64,000 nt of DNA from Methylibium rhizosphaerae (GTDB lineage: Bacteria; Pseudomonadota; Gammaproteobacteria; Burkholderiales; Burkholderiaceae_C): contig NZ_SWAR01000004.1 of NCBI RefSeq assembly GCF_006386545.1, forward strand, positions 310,001 to 374,000, in the 5' to 3' direction. Within the stretch, counting starts at the first letter, position 1. Each line of letters begins with the position of its first letter. Shown here one piece after another: positions 25,632 to 44,620 of the stretch. A model generated the notes under the pieces. It had not been told where the DNA came from and ran no database searches. It saw only the letters and a program-made list of their open reading frames with translations. A program made the position numbers and the translations under genes.

Positions 25632-26882
25632 ATGCAAGACCTCGACTTCCGCCTGCCCGCCTTCGAATCCGCCCTCGCCGAGCTGCCGCCCTCCCCGGGC
25701 GCGGCCGTGGCCCATGACGAGCACTACTGGGACCTCGTGCGCCGCCTGTACGACGTGGCGCGCGAGCCGGCCAACCTGGAGCAAGGCTACTGGGGCGTGA
25801 TGGCCGAACCGGTGAAGGCGATGTTCCATCACTGGACGGATCGCGTGAACCGCGAGAACACGCTGCTCGTGCGCGATCGCTGGCCCGCCCTGCAGGAAGG
25901 CGTGCGGCAGCAGGTGGCCCAGGCGCTGGGCTGCGCCACGGAAGAGGTCGCCCTCACCCGCGGTGCCTCGGAGGCGATGTTCGCGCTGATCGGCGGCTTC
26001 AACCGCCTGGCGCCGGGCGACACGGTGCTGTATTGCGACCTCGACTACCCGGCCACCCGCAACGCGATGGCATGGCTGCGCGAGCGGCGCGGGGTGGTGC
26101 CGGTGCAGATCACCATGCCCGAGCCGGCCAGCCGCGAAGGGGTCATCGCCGCCTATGCGCAGGCCCTGGCGCAGCACCCGCGCACCCGCCTCGTGCTGCT
26201 CACCCACCTGTCGCACAGCACCGGCCTCGTGATGCCGGTGCGGGAGCTGTCTGCACTCGCGCACGAAGCGGGCGCGCAAGTGATCGTGGATGCGGCGCAC
26301 TCGTGGGGCCAGCTCGACTTCGACGCGCCCGACCTGGGCGCGCCGTATGCGGGCTTCAACCTGCACAAGTGGGCCGGTGCGCCGCTGGGCAACGGCTGCC
26401 TGTACGTGAAGCGGGGGGCGGTCGCCGGCATCGACCGCTGGTTCGGCGACCGCGACTGGGGTGAAGACGACGTGCGCTCCCGCATGCACACCGGTTCGCC
26501 CAGCTTCGCCGCCTGGCTCACACTGCCGGCGGCGCTGCAGCTGCACCGGCACATCGGCGCAGCCACCAAGGAAGCCCGGCTGCGCGCGTTGCGCCACCAC
26601 TGGGTGCAGCGGGCCCGCACGCTGCCGGGCGTCCAGGTCCTCACGCCCGATGACGCACTCTCCTGCGGCGGCATCACCTCGTTCCGCCTGGCAGGGCGCA
26701 CGTCGGAAACCGACAACGAAGCCCTCGTGCGACGGCTGCGCGACGAGCACGGCGTGCTCACCGTGCGGCGCGAAGGGCCGGCAGCCGGCCAGTGCGTGCG
26801 GGTGACGCCGGCCTTGCACACCACGCTGGCCGAACTGGACCGGCTGGTCGACGGCCTGCGCGCGATCACCGCGGCCGGCTGA
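25632..26882 (+). CDS. Class V aminotransferase family PLP enzyme
   Basis: 416 residues. Fold-type I PLP enzyme: TRGASEAMFALIGG (phosphate loop) at 109-122, VIVDAAHSWGQ at 218-227 with Asp220 for the ring nitrogen, and the Schiff-base lysine Lys246 in GFNLHKWAGAPLG. The family includes cysteine desulfurases, kynureninases and isopenicillin-N epimerase-like enzymes; the last group (CefD-like) looks nearest from HSTGLVMPVREL, but substrate is not determinable. Its 3' end overlaps the convergent sensor kinase gene by 17 bp, so both stop codons lie within the other gene. Confidence 0.85.
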   Translation: MQDLDFRLPAFESALAELPPSPGAAVAHDEHYWDLVRRLYDVAREPANLEQGYWGVMAEPVKAMFHHWTDRVNRENTLLVRDRWPALQEGVRQQVAQALGCATEEVALTRGASEAMFALIGGFNRLAPGDTVLYCDLDYPATRNAMAWLRERRGVVPVQITMPEPASREGVIAAYAQALAQHPRTRLVLLTHLSHSTGLVMPVRELSALAHEAGAQVIVDAAHSWGQLDFDAPDLGAPYAGFNLHKWAGAPLGNGCLYVKRGAVAGIDRWFGDRDWGEDDVRSRMHTGSPSFAAWLTLPAALQLHRHIGAATKEARLRALRHHWVQRARTLPGVQVLTPDDALSCGGITSFRLAGRTSETDNEALVRRLRDEHGVLTVRREGPAAGQCVRVTPALHTTLAELDRLVDGLRAITAAG

Positions 26883-29800
26883 CGGCCGGCCCTGCCGCCG
26901 GCCCCACCCGCACCCGCACCCGCGTGCCGCGGCCCGGCGCGCTGTCGATGTCCAGCGTGCCGCCGAGCAGGCCGGCGCGCTCTTCCATCCCGAGCAGGCC
27001 GTAGCCCGTGCGCGGGCTGCTGGCATCGAAGCCCACGCCGTCGTCAGTCACGCTGAGGCACCACTCGTCACCCTCCGCGTGCAAGGCAACGCTCGCACGC
27101 GTGGCCTGCGCATGCCTGCGCACGTTGGTGAGCGACTCCTGCGTGATGCGGAACAGCATGATGCCCACGTCGGGGCACAAGTCGTTGGCCGCTGGGTCGA
27201 CGTCGACCTCGCACGGCAGGCCGGTGCTGCGGGTGAACTCGGCGGCCAGCCAGTCGATGGCGGCAGAGAGGCCGCCATCCAGCGCCGGCGGCCTGAGGTC
27301 GGACACCAGGCCCCGCACGGTGGCCACCAGCCGGTCGACCCGCTCCTGCATTTGCTGCCAGCTTTGCGGCGCCAGTGCCTCCCCCGAACCGGTGCGGATG
27401 CGCAGCACCGACACCTCCATGCGCAGGGCAGCGAGCTGCTGGCCCAGCTCGTCGTGCAGTTCGCGCGCCACCCGCTTGCGCTCCTCCTCGAGCGATCGGG
27501 CGTTGTGCGCACCGAACTCCCGCAGCGCCTTGCGCGAGGCATCGAGCTCCTCGGTGCGCAATTCGAGTTCCTGCGTGCGTCGCGACACCTGCTCGCGCAG
27601 CTCGGCGGCTCGCTGCTGCAGCAGTCGCGTGCGCAAGCGGACGAGCGAGCCCACCAGCAACAGCGCCAGCGCCAGCATGGCGGCCCGGAAGGCCGTGGTC
27701 TCGAACCAGGCCGGCTGCACGTGCAGCGGCCAGCGGGCAGTGGTCCATTCACCGGAGCGGTTCGCCGCCTTCACTTCCAGCGTGTATTCGCCGGGCGGCA
27801 CGTTGGTGTAGCGCGCCGCCCGCAATTCGGCGCTCGACGCCGTCCATGACTCTTCCAGGCCCACCAGCCGGTAGGCGTAGCGGGTGCGCTCCGGGGCCGA
27901 GTAGTCGAGCAGCGCGAAGTTGACCTGGACCGCACGCTGCGAAGGGCCCAGCGTGATGCCCGAAGCCTCCACCGGCTGCCCGTCGCCGTCGGCCAGCCGG
28001 ATCGGGGCCTTGAAACGCCAGGGCTGGAATCCATCCGGGTGCACGACGGCCAGACCGTCGCCGCCGAACAGCAGCTCGCCGGCAGGCGTGGCCGCTGCCG
28101 CCGACGTGTAGTACACGCGCTGGCCCACGCCGTCGGCCTTCTGGAGCAATGCCGTGTCCAGCGTGTCGCGGTCGATGCGCAGGATGCCGTTGTCCGCGCT
28201 CACCCACGCATGCCCTTGTGCGTCGAGCAGCAGGGCGTTGGCTGCGTTGTTCTGCAAGCCCTCGTCATGCCCGACGTGCCGCACCCTCGGTGCCGAGCCG
28301 TCGACGCCGGGCTCGACGATGAACACGCCGCCGCCATAGAAGGCCGCCCACAGCCGGCCCCGCTTGTCGTGCACGATGGCCGTGACCATGTTGCTCGACA
28401 GGCCGGCAACGCCCTGCACCTCCAGTTGCGGCCGCTCGACGCGCCCGGTGTCGGGCCGGTAGCGCAGCAGCCCGGTCCAGGTGCCCACCCACAGCGAGCC
28501 GTCGTCGTGGCAGCCGAGCGCGGTGATCGCCTCGCGCTTCAACGCCGGGTCGCCGGCGGGCTGCGCCACCGGCTCATTGGCCGACAGGTCGATGCTGTGC
28601 AGCCCCTCCTGCCCGCCCAGCCACAGCCGGCCGCCGGCCACGCACAGCGACCTGACCAGCGAGTTCTGGCCCAGGCCCCGGACCTTCACCCGCTCGACGC
28701 GACGGCCGCCGTCCCGCGCCCGGTACAGCCCGAGGCCCGTGCCGATGTACACGCTGCCGTCCGGCGCGCCGACCATGCGCAGCACCATGCTGGCGGGCAG
28801 CGCGTTGCCCGGCTGGCCGTCCTGCGGCAGCAGGCGATGCCTGGCCCTGCCATCGGCCGCCACGATGTCGATGCCGCCGCCGCCGCTGCCCAGCCAGACG
28901 CTGCCATCGGGCTGCGCGAGGAGCGCGGTGACCCCGGTGCGGGCGCCGCCGAGCAGACCGGCATCGCCGCCGTACCACGCCGACACGACGCGCTGGCCGG
29001 GATCATGCGAATCGAGCAGGCTGGGCCCGGCGGCCCACATGAGGCCGCTGCGGTCACGCAGCAGCACCGGCACGTTGTCCTTCGCGAGGGTGGCCGGGAC
29101 GTCGGGTTCATGGCGCAGCTGCCGGGTCGTCCAGGTGCGCGTGTCCACCTGCACGATGCCCTGAGCCCAGGTGCCCAGCCACACCTCATGGTCGCCTGCC
29201 TCGGCAATGGCAGCGACCCATTGGGTCTCCAGCCCCTTGCCGTCGCTGCGTTCGGTGTCGCGCACTGGGCGGGCCGATGCGGCACCAGGCTCGATCACGA
29301 AGGCGCCGGTGGCGCGCGTGCCGATCCAGATGCGTCCGGCGCTGTCCTGCACCACCCGCCGCACTTCGACGGCGGCCCGGGCCCGGCCTTCCAGCGGCAC
29401 CGGCTCGAAGGCAGCGGCGCCCCCGCGCAACACGTACAGCCCTTCACGCGTGCCGACCCACAGATGGCCGCCGCGATCGGCGAGCAGCGCGAACACCCGC
29501 TGCACCGGCAGGCCGGGCGGGATGGAACCTTCCGCATGGCGCCCCACGACACGGCCGGTGGCGAGCTCCAGCTGGTCGAGCCCGGCAGCGGTGCCCACCC
29601 ACAGGCGGCCCGCCGCATCGTCGGCGAGCGCCAGCACCCGCGGGCTGCTCAGCCCCCGAGGCCCTGCGCCGAGGGTCCAGAAGCGGCCGTTCGTCTTGTC
29701 GAGCCGCCCCAGGCCGCCGCCGTTCGCACCCAGCCAGAGGCGGCCCTGGCGGTCCTCGTGCAGCACGTTGACGTAGCCGGTCGACGGGCTACCGGGCTTG

Positions 29801-30063
29801 GAGGGGTCCGCGACGTAGCGCTGAAAGCCATAGCCGTCCCAGCTGGCGAGGCCGGTCTGCGAAGCGATCCACATGAGGCCTTCGCGGTCCTGCAGCATCG
29901 CGGCCGGCACGATGTCGCCGGGCAGGCTGACGTGCCGGAACACCGGGACGGCGTCACGCTCCCAGGCACTTGCCGCCAGCGCGCAGGCCCATGGCAGCGC
30001 GAGCAGCCACAGGCACAGGAAGCGGCGCGCCGCGGCGATGTATGTCATGGGGCAGGCCGGCAT
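26866..30063 (-). CDS. Propeller-sensor histidine kinase (Reg_prop, Y_Y_Y, HisKA_3)
   Basis: 1065 residues. Signal peptide or first helix at 13-30 (FLCLWLLALPWACALAASA), then about 650 residues of two-component-propeller repeats (DREGLMWIASQTGLASWDG, DRQGRLWLGANGGGLGRLD and many more), a Y_Y_Y domain near 690-755 (ERTRYAYRLVGLEESWT), a membrane helix near 765-785, a coiled coil, the HisKA_3 box RVARELHDELGQQ with His870, and an HATPase with TDDGVGFD. No receiver follows. Periplasmic propellers of this kind sense sugars or oligosaccharides in other bacteria. It is 66 bp after kdgK on the same strand, so it may sense hexuronates, but no partner regulator is in the window. Confidence 0.9.
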   Translation of the reverse strand: MPACPMTYIAAARRFLCLWLLALPWACALAASAWERDAVPVFRHVSLPGDIVPAAMLQDREGLMWIASQTGLASWDGYGFQRYVADPSKPGSPSTGYVNVLHEDRQGRLWLGANGGGLGRLDKTNGRFWTLGAGPRGLSSPRVLALADDAAGRLWVGTAAGLDQLELATGRVVGRHAEGSIPPGLPVQRVFALLADRGGHLWVGTREGLYVLRGGAAAFEPVPLEGRARAAVEVRRVVQDSAGRIWIGTRATGAFVIEPGAASARPVRDTERSDGKGLETQWVAAIAEAGDHEVWLGTWAQGIVQVDTRTWTTRQLRHEPDVPATLAKDNVPVLLRDRSGLMWAAGPSLLDSHDPGQRVVSAWYGGDAGLLGGARTGVTALLAQPDGSVWLGSGGGGIDIVAADGRARHRLLPQDGQPGNALPASMVLRMVGAPDGSVYIGTGLGLYRARDGGRRVERVKVRGLGQNSLVRSLCVAGGRLWLGGQEGLHSIDLSANEPVAQPAGDPALKREAITALGCHDDGSLWVGTWTGLLRYRPDTGRVERPQLEVQGVAGLSSNMVTAIVHDKRGRLWAAFYGGGVFIVEPGVDGSAPRVRHVGHDEGLQNNAANALLLDAQGHAWVSADNGILRIDRDTLDTALLQKADGVGQRVYYTSAAAATPAGELLFGGDGLAVVHPDGFQPWRFKAPIRLADGDGQPVEASGITLGPSQRAVQVNFALLDYSAPERTRYAYRLVGLEESWTASSAELRAARYTNVPPGEYTLEVKAANRSGEWTTARWPLHVQPAWFETTAFRAAMLALALLLVGSLVRLRTRLLQQRAAELREQVSRRTQELELRTEELDASRKALREFGAHNARSLEEERKRVARELHDELGQQLAALRMEVSVLRIRTGSGEALAPQSWQQMQERVDRLVATVRGLVSDLRPPALDGGLSAAIDWLAAEFTRSTGLPCEVDVDPAANDLCPDVGIMLFRITQESLTNVRRHAQATRASVALHAEGDEWCLSVTDDGVGFDASSPRTGYGLLGMEERAGLLGGTLDIDSAPGRGTRVRVRVGPAAGPAVSRPR

Positions 30064-30129: not shown

Positions 30130-31092
30130 TCACGCGGCGGCGCCGGGGGCCTGCATCAGGTCGGCCATTGCCTCGCGGGGAATCAGCGCGCCGCGGTGCT
30201 GGATCACCCGTGCGGCCAGCCGGTTGCCCAGCAGCGCCGCATCTTGCGCGCTGCCGCCCGGCAGCCGCACGCTCAGGTAGCCGGCAGCGAAGGAATCGCC
30301 GGCGGCGGTGGTGTCCATCACCCGGGCCACCGGCTCGGTGGGCACTTCCACCAGCGGCTCCCGGCCGCACCGGACCAGCGTGGCCTGCCGGCCGCGCTTG
30401 ACCACCACCTCGGGGCAAGGCAGCGCCAGCGCCCGGGCCACCGCCACCTCCAGGCCGGGCAACGCATGCAGCGCCTGGTGGTCGTCGGCCGTGACCAGCG
30501 CCAGCGTCGCCAGCTCGAAGGCCTCGGCATAGGCGGCCAGCGCCTCCTCGTGTCGCGGCCACAGGCGCGGCCGGTAGTTGTTGTCGAACACCACCGGCTT
30601 GCCGCGCCCGCGCAGCCGGCGCATCAGCCCGAAGAGGCGTTCGCGCCCGGCCGCCGGCAGGATGGCCAGGCTGATGCCGCTCAGGTACAGCGCGTCCAGC
30701 GTGTCGCAGGCGGCCTCCAGCGGCGAGGGCTCGGCGGCGTCGAAGTAGGCCCTGGCTGCGCTCGTGTCGCGCCAGTAGCTGAAGCTGCGCTCGCCGTTCG
30801 GGTCGACGTCGATCATGTAGAGCCCGGGCATGCGGCCCGGCACCCGCCGCACCAGGTCCACTGCGACGCCTTCGTCCGTCCAGCGCTGTACGAGGCCGTC
30901 GCTCAGCGGGTCGTCGCCCAGGCCGGTGGCATAGGTCGTGTCGATGCCCCGCGCCTCGCCGCACCGCGCCAGGTAGACGGCGGTGTTGAGGGTGTCGCCG
31001 CCGAATGTCTGCTGCAGCGTGCCGAAGGCCTGCCCCTGCAACTCGAGCATGCACTCGCCGAACAGGGCGACCCGCTGTCGGTTGGGCTCCAT
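30130..31092 (-). CDS. kdgK: PfkB-family sugar kinase, probable 2-keto-3-deoxygluconate kinase
   Basis: 320 residues from ATG MEPNRQRVALFGECM, preceded by GGGGAGTCC. PfkB motifs: GGDTLNTAVYLARCG near 30-44 (substrate side), and DTTAAGDSFAAGYL near 258-271 with the catalytic Asp in AAGDSF. FGECMLEL and NYRPRLWP are typical of KdgK. It would phosphorylate 2-keto-3-deoxygluconate to KDPG. Its place, divergent from uronate dehydrogenase and the TRAP genes, supports a role in hexuronate catabolism. Two GntR-type operators lie upstream. Confidence 0.85.
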   Translation of the reverse strand: MEPNRQRVALFGECMLELQGQAFGTLQQTFGGDTLNTAVYLARCGEARGIDTTYATGLGDDPLSDGLVQRWTDEGVAVDLVRRVPGRMPGLYMIDVDPNGERSFSYWRDTSAARAYFDAAEPSPLEAACDTLDALYLSGISLAILPAAGRERLFGLMRRLRGRGKPVVFDNNYRPRLWPRHEEALAAYAEAFELATLALVTADDHQALHALPGLEVAVARALALPCPEVVVKRGRQATLVRCGREPLVEVPTEPVARVMDTTAAGDSFAAGYLSVRLPGGSAQDAALLGNRLAARVIQHRGALIPREAMADLMQAPGAAA

Positions 31093-31187
31093 GGACTCCC
31101 CAGGATTTATTTGGAACGATGTTTCGATACTCTGCGAAAGGCGTACCGACTTGCCACCGGGATCGACCCGGAGTCCCATTCCGGGTC

Positions 31188-31200
31188 GTTGTCAGACAAC
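31188..31200. promoter_or_regulatory. GntR/FadR-type operator, copy 1
   Basis: GTTGT-CAG-ACAAC: perfect 5-bp arms with a 3-bp centre, the TnGTnnnACnA layout of FadR-subfamily GntR sites. It is about 96 bp upstream of kdgK. Confidence 0.65.
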
Positions 31201-31298
31201 ATCATTTCAAGCACGGAAGCCCTTGCCCAACTTTTTCTCTGGCGCATCGGTGGGTTTCCCCTAGACGTCTTGGCGCTCCATTTCGATACGCTGGCGGA

Positions 31299-31311
31299 GT
31301 TGTACGACAAC
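31299..31311. promoter_or_regulatory. GntR/FadR-type operator, copy 2
   Basis: GTTGT-ACG-ACAAC, same arms as copy 1, 111 bp away. It ends 8 bp before the first udh ATG, so bound repressor would block transcription start or early elongation of udh. Confidence 0.65.
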
Positions 31312-31319
31312 GTATCACT

Positions 31320-32177
31320 ATGGAATCCATGAAAGCTACGCCCGCTCCCGCCCGCCTGCTGCTCACCGGCGCGGCCGGCACGCTCGGCCGTGCGCTGCGA
31401 GACCCGCTGCGCTCGGCCTGCCAGCACCTGCGCCTGTCCGACCTGAAGCCGATGGAAGGCCCCTGGGCGCCCGATGAAAGCTTCGTCGCCTGCGACCTGG
31501 CCGACCGCGCCGGCATGCTGGCGCTGCTGCGGGACGTGGACGCGGTGGTGCACCTGGGCGGCGTGTCGGTCGAGACACCCTTCGATCCCATCCTCTCGGC
31601 CAACATCCTGGGCATCTTCCACCTGTACGAGTCGGCAAGGGTGAACGGCGTGCGCCGCATCGTCTTCGCCAGCTCCAACCATTGCACCGGCGCCTACCCT
31701 CGCAGCGAGCGCCTGCAGGTGACCGACCCGCCCCGGCCCGATGGCTACTACGGCGTGAGCAAGCTGTTCGGCGAGCACATGGCGCAGCTGTACTTCGACC
31801 GCCACGGCATCGAAACGGTGTGCCTGCGCATCGGCAGCGCCACGCCGCAACCGGCGGACAAGCGCGGCCTGTCCACCTGGATCAGCCTGCGCGATCTCAC
31901 CCAGCTCGTGCTGCGCTCGCTGTCGGCGCCCGGCGTCGGCTGCAGCATCGTGTGGGGCGTGTCGGCCAATTCGGCAGCGTGGTGGGACAACGCGGCTCCG
32001 GCCCGGCGGGTGGGCTATGTACCGCAGGACTCGTCGGACGCCTTCGCGGCCCAGGTGCTGGCGCAGCCGCTGCCCGACTACGAACGCGACCCGGCCTCGG
32101 CGACCGCGCGCCTGCAGGGCGGCAGCTTCGTCGGCGTGGGCCCCTTCCCCACCTTCGGCGAGGAGCGCGAGCCGTGA
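31320..32177 (+). CDS. udh: NAD-dependent uronate dehydrogenase
   Basis: 285 residues from the first ATG; a second ATG three codons later is as plausible, and neither has a good ribosome site. Extended short-chain dehydrogenase: TGAAGTLG at 16-23 binds NAD, SSN at 118-120 and Tyr144-x3-Lys148 (YYGVSK) are catalytic. The sequence SSNHCTGAYPRSERL and PLPDYERDP are typical of bacterial uronate dehydrogenases, which oxidise galacturonate or glucuronate to the aldarolactone. The GTG of the following lactonase overlaps its stop. First gene of a udh-lactonase-dctPQM operon. Confidence 0.88.
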   Translation: MESMKATPAPARLLLTGAAGTLGRALRDPLRSACQHLRLSDLKPMEGPWAPDESFVACDLADRAGMLALLRDVDAVVHLGGVSVETPFDPILSANILGIFHLYESARVNGVRRIVFASSNHCTGAYPRSERLQVTDPPRPDGYYGVSKLFGEHMAQLYFDRHGIETVCLRIGSATPQPADKRGLSTWISLRDLTQLVLRSLSAPGVGCSIVWGVSANSAAWWDNAAPARRVGYVPQDSSDAFAAQVLAQPLPDYERDPASATARLQGGSFVGVGPFPTFGEEREP

Positions 32178-33052
32178 GCGTTGCCGTCGAGGTCGCCGTG
32201 GACGTGCGCTGCCGCGTCGGGGAAAGTCCGCTGTGGGACGTGCGCGATGCCTGCCTGCACTGGGTCGACATCAGCGGCCAGGCCGTATGGCGCCACGACC
32301 CCTCCGCCGGCCGCACCACCCGCTGGAGCACGCCCGAGCCGGTGGGCTGCATCGCGCCGCGCGCCAGCGGCGGCTTCATCGCCGCCATGCAGACCGGCGT
32401 CTACGCCTTCGAACTCGGCGAAACGCTGGCACCCCGGCTTCTGGCCGCCGCGCAGCATCCCGCACCGCAGCGCTTCAACGACGGCCGCTGCGACCGCCAG
32501 GGCCGCTTCTGGGTCGGCAGCATGTTCCCCGACCCGGCCCAGGCCCGGCGCAACGGACGGCTCGCCCGGCTCGACGCCGGCACCTGGGCACCTCCGCTGC
32601 TCGAAGACATGATCGTGCCCAACGGCCTGGCCTTCAGCCCCGACGGCCGCACGCTGTATGCGAGCGACTCGCACGCCACCGTCGCCACGGTGTGGGCCTT
32701 CGACTACGACCCCGACACCGGTCGCGCAAGCAGGCAGCGCGCCTTCATCGACAAGCTGCCCGCCGGCCGGCCCGACGGCGCGGCGGTCGATGCCGACGGC
32801 TGCTACTGGATCTGCGCCAACGACGGCGCCGCAGTGCTGCGCTACACGCCGGGCGGCCGGCTCGACCGGCGCATCGACCTGCCGGTGGCCAAACCCTCGA
32901 TGTGCGCCTTCGGAGGCGCGCAGCTCGACACCCTGTACGTGACGTCGATACGCCCTGACGGCGACGGCGCCTTGGCACAACCCCTGGCCGGCGCGGTGTT
33001 CGCCTGCCGGCCAGGGGTGCGTGGCCTCGTGGAACCCGCCTACGCGGGCTGA
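32174..33052 (+). CDS. SMP-30/gluconolactonase family lactonase
   Basis: 292 residues from a GTG that overlaps the udh stop (GTGA) and has GAGGAGCGCGAG before it. Six-bladed propeller lactonase with metal residues in family positions: Glu17 (VGESPLW), Asn in [18 protein letters not shown], Asn in [19 protein letters not shown] and Asp in [13 protein letters not shown]. It should open the aldarolactone produced by uronate dehydrogenase to glucarate or galactarate; homologues act on gluconolactone or arabinolactone. Translational coupling with udh strengthens the pathway role. Confidence 0.88.
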
Positions 33053-33102: not shown

Positions 33103-34068
33103 ATGAACCGGAAGACCTCCCTCGCCGCCGCGCTGGCGCTCGCCTTGCCGGCACTGGCTTCGGCCATCGAGTTCCGCTCGGCCGACATCCACCCCGACGG
33201 CTACCCCACCGTCGAAGCCGTCAAGTTCATGGGCGAGCAGCTCAAGAAGCTGACCGGCGGCAAGCACTCGATCAACGTGTTCAACAACGGCAAGCTCGGC
33301 AACGAGAAGGACACGATCGAGCAGACCAAGCTTGGCGCCATCGCCATCGCGCGGGTCAACATCGCGCCGATGAACAACATCTGCCCGGCCACCATCGTGC
33401 CGACCATGCCCTTCCTGTTCCGCAGCACCGAGCACATGCGCAAGGTGCTCGACGGCCCGATCGGCGAGGAGATCCTGAAGAGCTGCGAGGCGCAGGGCTT
33501 CGTCGGCCTGGCCTACTACGACAGCGGCGCGCGTTCGATCTACACGGTGAAGAAGCCGGTCAAGACGGTGGAAGACACCAAGGGCATGAAGATCCGCGTG
33601 CAGCAGTCGGACCTGTGGGTCGCGCTGATGGAGGCGATGGGCGCCAATGCCACGCCCATGCCCTTCGGCGAGGTGTACACGGCGCTGAAGACCGGACTGG
33701 TGGATGCGGCCGAGAACAACTACCCGTCGTTCGAGAGCTCGCGCCACTTCGAGGTGGCCAAGTACTACTCGAAGACCGAGCACTCGATGGCGCCCGAGGT
33801 GCTGCTGTTCTCGAAGCGGGTGTGGGACGGCCTCTCGCCCGACGACCAGAAGGCGCTGCGCCAGGCCGCCAAGGACTCGGTGCCCCACATGCGCAAGCTG
33901 TGGGACGAGCGCGAGGCCAAGTCGCTGGCCACGGTGAAGGCCGCCGGCGCCGAGATCATCGAAGTGGACAAGGCCTCGTTCCGCAATGCGGTGAAGCCGG
34001 TGTACGTGAAGTTCCTGCGCGAGCCCAAGCTGCTCGACCTGGTCAAGCGCATCCAGGAAACGCAATAA
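33103..34068 (+). CDS. dctP: TRAP transporter substrate-binding protein DctP
   Basis: 321 residues. Signal peptide [21 protein letters not shown], then the DctP periplasmic binding fold: [41 protein letters not shown], and [20 protein letters not shown] near 188-207. The Arg that holds a carboxylate is likely in [10 protein letters not shown] near 163. It captures a sugar acid, probably a hexuronate, in the periplasm for the DctQM membrane unit. 50 bp after the lactonase gene. An RNA hairpin follows, which would raise its level over dctQM. Confidence 0.92.
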
Positions 34069-34115: not shown

Positions 34116-34604
34116 ATGTACACAAGAATCTGCGCCACGCTGGCGCGCTGGTGCATGTGGGTCGGCGTGGTCGGCCTGGTGCTGCTGATCGTTGCTGTGG
34201 CAGTGCAGGTGTTCGGCCGCTACGTGCTCAACAGCACCCCCACCTGGGCCGAAAGCCTCGCGCTGCTGCTGGTGCTGTACGTCACGATGCTGGGCGTGGC
34301 CGCGGGCGTGCGCGACGCCGGCCACATCGGGCTCGAGTCCTTCCTGGTGCTGCTGCCCGAGAAGCAGCGCCTGCGCTTCGAGATGCTCATCCATGTGCTG
34401 GTGGCCTGCTTCGGCGCGCTGATGGCCTGGTACTGCCTGATGCTCGGCATCTCGGTCATGGACTACAAGCTGCCCACGCTGGGCGTTTCCGAATCCCTCC
34501 GCTACTGGCCCGCGGCGATCGCGGGTGTGCTGATCGTGCTGTTTTCCATCGAACACCTCATCGCGCTCGTGCAGGGCCGCGCCGTGGAGCCCTCATGGCA
34601 CTGA
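34116..34604 (+). CDS. dctQ: TRAP transporter small permease DctQ
   Basis: 162 residues with four membrane helices (about 12-34, 48-68, 88-110, 128-150). VAVQVFGRYVLNSTPTWAESLALLLVLYV is the DctQ hallmark. It forms the small membrane subunit of the sodium-driven TRAP system with DctM. GGAG lies 8 bases before the ATG. The dctM start lies inside the end of this gene (10-bp overlap), so the two are coupled. Confidence 0.92.
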   Translation: MYTRICATLARWCMWVGVVGLVLLIVAVAVQVFGRYVLNSTPTWAESLALLLVLYVTMLGVAAGVRDAGHIGLESFLVLLPEKQRLRFEMLIHVLVACFGALMAWYCLMLGISVMDYKLPTLGVSESLRYWPAAIAGVLIVLFSIEHLIALVQGRAVEPSWH

Positions 34605-35881
34605 CCCTGCTCAGCCTTTCGTTCCTCGCCTTCCTGGTGCTCGGGGTGCCGGTCGCGTTTTCGATCGGCTTGGCGGCCATCGCGGCCATCCTTTACGAAG
34701 GACTGCCGCTCGAAGTGGTGTTCCAGCAGATGACCTCGGGCATGAACGCGTTCTCGTTCCTGGCCATTCCGTTCTTCATCTTCGCCGGCGAGCTGATGAT
34801 GTACGGCGGCATCGCCGACCGCATCGTCGCCTTCGCCAAGAGCGTGGTGGGCCACATCCGCGGCGGGCTGGGCATGTCGAACGTGGTGGCCTGCACGCTG
34901 TTCGGCGGCGTGGCCGGTTCGCCGGTGGCCGACGTGTCGGCGATGGGCTCGGTGATGATCCCGATGATGAAGCGCGAGGGCTATCACGCCGACTATGCAG
35001 TCAACGTGACGACCCATGCGGCACTGGTGGGCGCGCTCATGCCCACCAGCCACAACATGATCATCTACACCCTGGCCGCAGGCGGGAAGGTGTCGATCGC
35101 CGCGCTCATCCTCGCCGGCCTGCTGCCTGCGGTGCTGCTCACGCTGTGCAACCTCGGCGCGGCCTACTACGTGGCCATCCAGCGCGGCTATCCGGCCGGC
35201 ACCTTCCCGGGCTGGAGCATCGTCGCGCGGTCGCTGGCGGCTTCGCTGCCGGGGCTGTTCGTGGTGGTGGTGATCCTGGGCGGCATCCTGTCGGGCGTGT
35301 TCACCGCCACCGAGTCGGCCGCCGTCGCGGTGATCTATGCGCTCGCGCTCACCGTGCTGGTGTACCGCTCGCTGAAGTGGGAGGACTTCCTCAAGGCGGC
35401 GGCCAAGGCGGTCAAGACCACCGGCGTGGTGCTGCTGCTGATCGGCGTGTCGGCCAGCTTCGGCTACCTCATCAGCCTGTACGGCGTGGCCGAGCTCACC
35501 GGGCGCATGCTGGGGGCGATGACTGACAACCCCTGGATGATCTTCCTGCTGGTCAACATCATCCTGTTCCTGCTCGGCACTTTCCTGGACATGGCGGCCA
35601 CCATCCTGATCTGCACGCCGATCTTCCTGCCGATCTGCATGCACTACGGCATGAGCGAGGTGCAGTTCGGCATCATGCTGCTGATCAACTGCGCACTCGG
35701 GCTCAACACGCCGCCGGTGGGCACGGTGCAGTTCATCGGCTGTGCGATCGGCGGTGTGTCGGTCGGCACGGTGATGCGCACCATCGCGCCGTTCTACGGG
35801 GCGCTGCTGCTGGCCTTGCTGCTGGTGACCTACGTGCCGGCGTTCTCGATGTGGCTGCCCACGGTGGTGCTGGCCAAGTGA
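34595..35881 (+). CDS. dctM: TRAP transporter large permease DctM
   Basis: 428 residues, about 12 membrane segments. Typical DctM motifs: LAIPFFIFAGELMMYGGIADRIV near 50-72, GGVAGSPVADVSAMGSVMIPMM near 103-124, and ALGLNTPPVGTVQFI near 366-380. It forms the ion-coupled channel for the acid bound by DctP. Overlaps dctQ by 10 bp. Two GC-rich hairpins follow the stop codon and end the operon. Confidence 0.93.
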   Translation: MALTLLSLSFLAFLVLGVPVAFSIGLAAIAAILYEGLPLEVVFQQMTSGMNAFSFLAIPFFIFAGELMMYGGIADRIVAFAKSVVGHIRGGLGMSNVVACTLFGGVAGSPVADVSAMGSVMIPMMKREGYHADYAVNVTTHAALVGALMPTSHNMIIYTLAAGGKVSIAALILAGLLPAVLLTLCNLGAAYYVAIQRGYPAGTFPGWSIVARSLAASLPGLFVVVVILGGILSGVFTATESAAVAVIYALALTVLVYRSLKWEDFLKAAAKAVKTTGVVLLLIGVSASFGYLISLYGVAELTGRMLGAMTDNPWMIFLLVNIILFLLGTFLDMAATILICTPIFLPICMHYGMSEVQFGIMLLINCALGLNTPPVGTVQFIGCAIGGVSVGTVMRTIAPFYGALLLALLLVTYVPAFSMWLPTVVLAK

Positions 35882-44218: not shown

Positions 44219-44620
44219 TCAGTCCCAGTACAGCGGGGCACGGTAGTAGGCGTGCACGCTGCGATGCCATTGCTCGTCGGCCTGACTCGGCCAATGGTCC
44301 TTGTCGAAGCCGGGGGCGTTGTCGAACAACTCGCGCGGGGCATCGAGCACGAAACACTTGCGGTCGGTGTCGAGCACCAGGGCATGCCAGGGGATGGCGA
44401 AGAGGCGCTCACCCATGCCCAGCACGCCGCCCGACGACATGACCGCGTAGGCGATCTTGCCGCGCGGTACGTCGAGCATGATCTCGTCGACCGTCCCCAG
44501 CGTTTCGTCTTCGCGGTTGATGACCTTGTCGCCGGTGAGCGTCGAGGCCGTCATCAATCGGGGGCCCGGCCCGCTGGCATTGGTGTCGATGCGTGCGCCG
44601 CCTGATATTGCTGCGTTCAT
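44219..44620 (-). CDS. PRC-barrel domain protein
   Basis: 133 residues. PRC barrel in about 20-95: LTGDKVINREDETLGTVDEIMLDVPRGKIAYAVMSSGGVLGMGERLFAIPW, a standard arrangement of stand-alone PRC-barrel stress proteins. The C-terminal FDKDHWPSQADEQWHRSVHAYY is typical of the family in Burkholderiales. Function unknown, perhaps a protein-binding adapter. GGAGGAATCC lies upstream. A sigma-54-like site (44702-44717) faces it. Confidence 0.87.
   Translation of the reverse strand: MNAAISGGARIDTNASGPGPRLMTASTLTGDKVINREDETLGTVDEIMLDVPRGKIAYAVMSSGGVLGMGERLFAIPWHALVLDTDRKCFVLDAPRELFDNAPGFDKDHWPSQADEQWHRSVHAYYRAPLYWD

Follow-up and report, generated by a model that had tools for sequence, protein, structure and literature searches.

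The window, by which we mean the whole 64-kb stretch of DNA that was analyzed, contains the sugar kinase gene kdgK and, divergently transcribed from it, an operon that begins with udh and continues with an SMP-30 family gene and the genes of a TRAP transporter (Table 1). The kinase reached 347 bits against NCBIfam NF052444 (KdgK), below the cut-off of 400, and its ATG lies at 31092 on the minus strand. Two alternative starts are available for udh, 31320 and 31329, the latter of which fits the N-termini of its relatives better. The SMP-30 gene can be called a uronate lactonase (UxuL-type) by context only, and the small DctQ-like frame (34116..34604) had no NCBIfam match. Taken as a set, udh, lactonase and TRAP transporter fit the oxidative uronate route, which leads from uronate through the aldarolactone to the aldarate according to excerpts of PMC6353982. 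Directly behind kdgK, the minus strand (26866-30063) encodes a sensor kinase that combines two-component propeller repeats with Y_Y_Y and HisKA_3 domains; tblastn (E ≤ 1e-10) did not detect it in the kdgK regions of seven relatives, and it is a possible second input to the kdgK-udh locus.

Table 1. Genes and sequence elements at the kdgK-udh locus, with their positions in the window.
Feature	Position	Strand	Assignment or basis
kdgK, PfkB-family sugar kinase	30130..31092	-	Pfam PF00294; best NCBIfam KdgK (2-dehydro-3-deoxygluconokinase)
kdgK box, GGAACGATGTTTC	31113..31125	.	degenerate copy of box GAAACNNNGTTTC; candidate second kdgK operator
Site 1, GTTGTCAGACAAC	31188..31200	.	predicted GguR operator
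Site 2, GTTGTACGACAAC	31299..31311	+	predicted primary GguR operator of udh
ATCAC	31314..31318	+	at +15 of site 2, one letter off AYRAC
udh, NAD-dependent uronate dehydrogenase	31329..32177	+	PDB 3rft, E 8.8e-81; PF01370
SMP-30/gluconolactonase family	32174..33052	+	PF08450, E 2.9e-80
TRAP substrate-binding protein DctP	33103..34068	+	NCBIfam NF037995 and TIGR00787, above cut-off
Small TRAP permease DctQ	34116..34604	+	position and look
Large TRAP permease DctM	34595..35881	+	TIGR00786, above cut-off

GguR, to which the predicted operators in Table 1 are attributed, is a GntR-family regulator of the FadR/FCD type that governs the use of galactarate/glucarate and hexuronates. The initial annotation of this DNA had reported two copies of GTTGT-N3-ACAAC, 111 bp apart, one of them abutting the udh start, and both descriptions were confirmed: the copies were found where it had placed them, between kdgK (minus strand) and the udh operon, with identical arms, a start-to-start spacing of 111 bp and the 3-bp spacers CAG (site 1) and ACG (site 2). 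Site 2 stands 8 bp (start 31320) or 17 bp (start 31329) before the udh ATG, and the center of site 1 lies 102 bp upstream of the kdgK start codon. The exact palindrome was observed three times in the 64-kb window, against a mean of 0.01 and a maximum of 1 in 100 shuffles; the third match (44318-44330) was rejected as coding, as it falls within a minus-strand frame that looks PRC-barrel-like by eye. Across the whole 6.17-Mb genome, exact GTTGTNNNACAAC occurs in 7 places, compared with 2 for the pattern read backwards, and three of the seven have a spacer of the main udh class (ACG, CAG or a reverse complement), namely site 1, site 2 and a site before an FCD gene on contig C177. The exact matches on C175 and C198 were set aside, both being in long open frames. 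An exact GTTGTTGAACAAC was also observed at C176:156558-156570 (L018:6559), shortly before a frame for an OmpW-like outer-membrane protein (by eye), and its spacer is outside the GguR class. When one mismatch was allowed, the motif was unenriched genome-wide (121 places versus 288 for the reversed control) and was dropped as a genome-wide regulon finder; the evidence therefore comes from the exact site together with its location and conservation.

The layout of the two sites had been attributed to the FadR subfamily of GntR regulators, with the regulator gene placed outside the window, and a search of the genome for a GntR gene with the same site upstream had been proposed. An FCD-type search found nine FCD genes in the genome and none at C132:310001-374000, and one of the nine, within a glucarate dehydratase cluster, has the same exact site upstream, which supports both the attribution and the absence of the gene from the window. 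This gene (G000:C177:4687-5409; L016), hereafter gguR, encodes a GntR domain (PF00392) and an FCD domain (PF07729), both above cut-off, and GTTGTCGTACAAC, the reverse complement of site 2, occupies L016:4668-4680, 6 bp before its ATG. For the eight other FCD genes, a scan of 800 bp per gene found no site at ≤1 mismatch, and the gene on C177 is the sole match in the genome to the udh-linked regulator family (E ≤ 1e-50). Its best NCBIfam model, NanR, was sub-threshold (106 bits versus a cut-off of 260). Residues D150, H154, H204 and H226, which we take to be the FCD metal site, are invariant in 13 aligned orthologs. Since the udh contig extends about 33 kb and 341 kb to either side of udh without an FCD gene, a distance of at least about 33 kb separates udh from the regulator gene.

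The cluster in which gguR is found is the pathway downstream of udh. The first gene behind the regulator, on the same strand, encodes a TctC receptor (PF03401) and the second a glucarate dehydratase (TIGR03247, 857 bits; equivalog cut-off 829); also downstream are two genes recognized by eye, one SMP-30-like and the other a second TctC-like gene, followed on the regulator strand by genes for a 2-hydroxyacid dehydrogenase (PF02826) and for an aldolase of HpcH/GarL type, the best NCBIfam matches of which, HpaI and GarL, are both below cut-off. The same contig contains a DUF4147/MOFRL gene, presumably of glycerate kinase type. A degenerate site, GTTGTACGATGAC, was found at L016:5565, before the TctC and glucarate dehydratase genes. 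The site at gguR covers the minus-10 of a promoter candidate, TTGCAG-N17-TACAAC, seen by eye; a strict sigma-70 scan gave no promoter at either the udh locus or the gguR locus. It was further observed that the gguR start codon comes 6 bp past this TACAAC candidate within the operator (L016:4668-4690), and the gguR message would therefore be leaderless or nearly so.

In a comparison of 200 genomes of the family, udh and the regulator tended to occur together. At E ≤ 1e-50 there were 98 udh hits in 90 genomes; the regulator was present in 93 genomes, and both genes in 76 (Fisher p about 1e-23, with kinship between genomes ignored). Both genes lie within 5 kb of each other in 59 of these 76 genomes, divergently in every case, and in 52 of the 59 they are less than 600 bp apart. 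We scanned 400 bp upstream of all 98 udh hits, comprising 59 linked to the regulator, 25 with an unlinked regulator and 14 without a regulator hit; the counts retain three unlinked hits with less than 400 bp of upstream sequence, which were scored as lacking the site (G100, G022:C6 and G123), and six possible paralogs with identities of only 42-49%. The exact site precedes udh in 35/59 linked cases, 4/25 unlinked cases and 2/14 cases without a regulator hit, and at ≤1 mismatch the figures become 43/59, 4/25 and 2/14, while shuffles of all 98 regions averaged 0.01 exact sites and 0.69 at one mismatch (largest 3). Among the 16 linked cases without a site at ≤1 mismatch, 11 have GTCAT-N3-ACAAC and five have neither, so that an exact site or this recurrent variant, one-mismatch sites included, stands before udh in 54 of the 59. 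Regulator genes are similarly preceded by the site: in the best 30 of 96 hits, our own gene included, 23 were exact and 27 were at ≤1 mismatch, compared with 0 and 0.12 in shuffled sequence. The spacer ACG is the commonest upstream of udh (29/42 exact sites, site 2 included), followed by CAG (7/42, site 1 included).

Conservation in relatives, on which the original proposal had been made to depend, thus holds where gguR is linked and fails in most of the remaining genomes. The unlinked udh hits with a site are those of this genome, G196, G138 and G142, and in G103, one of the two genomes with a site and no regulator hit, tblastn detected a regulator match beside udh. With a site in only 4 of 25 cases, unlinked udh genes are usually under another rule. 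The common pattern of the family is that regulator and udh are divergent neighbors with one operator between them, and the present genome is an exception, in which the operator at udh has been kept and the regulator gene does not adjoin it. As a separate observation, of the 39 udh hits to which no gguR is linked, 33 have no site at ≤1 mismatch (three of them with less than 400 bp of upstream sequence), and another mode of udh control seems to be common in the family where gguR is not linked.

The name GguR was tied to the regulator through a published site and through its orthologs in Polaromonas. The published motif is known here from one quoted site, that of Polaromonas JS666 with the core GTCATCAGACAAC, given in the methods of PMC8376909 with reference to Bouvier et al. 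2019. The core of this site is the GTCAT-N3-ACAAC variant that recurs upstream of linked udh genes. Among the matches listed, the 13-bp JS666 core lies between gguR and udh in 5/5 Polaromonas loci examined, a sixth listed locus was flagged as a variant, and the six listed orthologs are 59-62% identical to the regulator of this genome. According to excerpts of PMC5507952, GguR controls the aldarate operon in two Halomonas strains and, in one of the two, also the udh operon with its transporter; nothing on GguR was found in excerpts of PMC10204090. We also scanned 350 bp upstream of the regulator in 80 named regulator loci. Among these listed matches, the flanks contain udh in 27 and glucarate dehydratase in 21, as judged by sequence matches; 16 have the exact site, 22 a site at ≤1 mismatch and 17 more the variant only. 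The other 41, mostly from Pseudomonas, have neither site nor variant. The 37 listed Pseudomonas loci include two with udh, none with a site at ≤1 mismatch and six with the variant, and since 0/37 have the site and 2/37 have udh, the operator has drifted in Pseudomonas or the role of the regulator is different there.

Because relatives carry the ortholog of the C177 regulator next to udh, the operators are conserved and their variant equals the JS666 core, the sequences argue strongly that sites 1 and 2 are operators of GguR, whose gene lies on C177 and not beside udh; with similar confidence, the C177 regulator can be considered a probable GguR ortholog. As far as the GguR regulon is described in the excerpts cited above, the system resembles it in having a GntR-family regulator encoded with an aldarate cluster, the udh operon and its uronate transporter as a second target, and an operator core of GTCAT/GTTGT-N3-ACAAC. 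It differs in that gguR is apart from udh, udh is divergent from kdgK, and there are two exact sites.

The family-wide alignment also uncovered a third half-site. When the 54 gguR-linked udh operators were aligned on the palindrome, AYRAC was found at +15 in 48 of them, with A at +15 in all 54 and C at +19 in 52, and a second extra AYRAC was found at +22 in 9/54; over the scanned offsets (-40 to -5 and 13 to 44), only +15 and +22 exceeded four operators. The AYRAC at +15 follows ACAAC (+8) by 7 bp, giving an array of direct repeats that extends toward udh with a 7-bp period. At site 2 the position is taken by ATCAC, a form seen at +15 in 0/54 linked udh operators; no third half-site exists on either side of site 1 or at the gguR site of this genome (L016), and the quoted JS666 fragment ends before +15. 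The element is also present in 5/14 regulator loci without udh within 3 kb; of these five, G144 and G107 come from genomes without a udh hit, and G182 and G077 have udh 2.3 kb away. In 15/27 cases it is found distal to the regulator gene, and in 0/27 proximal to it. A role of AYRAC as the minus-10 of udh or as a promoter element of the divergent gene is less likely. Half-sites spaced by 7 bp may let more than one GguR dimer bind cooperatively, as in NanR, whose (GGTATA)3 operator is a triple repeat bound by three dimers (PMC8012715, in excerpt). Excerpts of PMC4494728 give extra half-sites 7-12 nt from the center as a general feature of GntR sites; the AYRAC center is 11 bp from the palindrome center, inside this range, and in both published cases, as in the GguR operators of the family, an additional half-site flanks the palindrome at a constant distance. 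The NanR operator as described consists of direct repeats, whereas the GguR operators combine a palindrome with a 7-bp direct repeat. In view of this general feature and of the NanR triple repeat, as far as the excerpts describe them, the third half-site is a detail and not a new principle.

In addition to the GguR sites, the intergenic region has a box close to kdgK. The divergent neighbor of udh is kdgK in 9 of the 98 udh regions, that is, the window and eight regions of relatives (L023, L026, L027, L039, L083, L090, L113 and L132), and G[AG]AACNNNGTTTC lies beside kdgK in all nine. Seven of them have GAAACNNNGTTTC, with the arm GAAAC, and two, the window and G142, have GGAACGAYGTTTC, with the arm GGAAC; this GGAAC pair also comprises the only two of the nine regions with exact GguR sites. 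A TTTCGATAC repeat occurs at 31122, where it overlaps the kdgK box, and at 31281, where no kdgK-box palindrome surrounds it. The box resembles that of KdgR/PlaR, regulators of the IclR family, the PlaR box being printed as ATnTGAAACnnnGTTCAnTT in an excerpt of PMC6958661: both are GAAAC-N3-GTTTC palindromes upstream of kdgK, with one mismatched arm in the window copy. From its sequence we regard it as a separate and weaker candidate operator of KdgR/PlaR type. A search for a cognate IclR regulator beside kdgK found no match to any of the nine IclR proteins of this genome in 16-20 kb from seven relatives (tblastn, E ≤ 1e-10). Pfam likewise revealed no regulator among nine frames near kdgK in L248, which gave a pectate lyase, SMP-30, an E1 dehydrogenase, a hydrolase, DUF2789 and four frames without a match; kduI-like frames were noticed by eye in two relatives, L250 and L253. 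Control of a pectin-type kdgK-udh unit may have passed from an IclR-type regulator to GguR, and site 1 may then be a new kdgK operator. The kdgK protein tree (n=9), in which the window and G142 formed one group in 12% of bootstrap trees, did not discriminate between one and two origins of the GguR-bearing regions. Such a regulatory handover at kdgK-udh and composite half-site arrays in GguR operators are readings that we consider unlikely.

From these patterns we infer GguR binding, repression, release by an effector and a role for site 1, which would work together as follows. Without substrate, a GguR dimer would be bound at site 2, 8-17 bp ahead of the udh ATG, and would keep the udh, lactonase and TRAP transporter genes from being transcribed; it would also occupy its own promoter (site at L016:4668-4680) and would control the TctC and glucarate dehydratase genes from the degenerate GTTGTACGATGAC copy at L016:5565. 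An aldarate or a pathway intermediate would release GguR, so that uronate uptake and oxidation and the breakdown of aldarates would be switched on together, and site 1 would extend GguR control to kdgK. With site 2 as close to udh as 8 or 17 bp, a repressor bound there would block the start region, and repression of the udh-lactonase-TRAP genes is most likely the role of this site. Site 1 probably acts on kdgK or in support of site 2. Its assignment to kdgK, made with moderate confidence, draws on excerpts of the survey in PMC4494728, in which FadR-type sites that occur in pairs within divergent regions lacking a regulator gene act as separate sites. The surveyed cases likewise have two palindromes between structural operons and no regulator gene; they form a statistical class, as excerpted, whereas the case here is specific to GguR.

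It is possible, although we consider it the less probable arrangement, that GguR acts from both sites jointly on udh alone, by looping or cooperative binding, and that kdgK is controlled separately through its GAAACNNNGTTTC-like box. This would accord with the presence of that box in 9/9 kdgK-udh intergenic regions, GGAAC variants counted, with the 102 bp between site 1 and the kdgK start, and with G142, the other kdgK-udh region with a GguR site, which has just one such site, located 61 bp ahead of the udh match. The phasing of the sites can be read either way: at 11 bp per turn, the figure for looping in cells, 111 bp is near-integral (10.1 turns), but a helical repeat of 10.5 bp puts the sites half a turn out of phase (10.6 turns). 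Two-site divergent regions without a regulator gene, moreover, show only the separate-site pattern in the excerpts of PMC4494728. Among the 98 udh regions no other has two exact sites, and G118 comes nearest with one exact site and one at one mismatch.

A different FadR-type regulator, binding both sites in place of the C177 protein, is very improbable. The genome offers nine FCD genes, and related regulators have similar boxes, TKGT/ACMA being common to the subfamily in excerpts of PMC4494728, but 0/8 of the other FCD genes have the site upstream and only the C177 gene matches the udh-linked family. Least probable of all is that the sites are chance palindromes or functionless remnants in this genome, for which the abundance of one-mismatch sites and the lack of a counterpart of site 1 in relatives could be adduced, but against which stand an exact pair in one intergenic region, where 0.01 are expected in 64 kb, and spacers that are both those of relatives' operators.

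We therefore retain GguR control of the udh operon through site 2, with site 1 tentatively extending it to kdgK. GguR-type control of a uronate operon is of an already known kind, and as GguR control of a udh operon has been described (PMC5507952, in excerpt), the gain beyond annotation is modest; the use of the result here is annotation. The approach may serve as a recipe for orphan operators, namely to seek a regulator gene with the same site and then to check its linkage in relatives. For this genome, it assigns what was an orphan pair of operators to a named regulon, for which three loci are predicted: the udh operon, gguR and the glucarate dehydratase genes.
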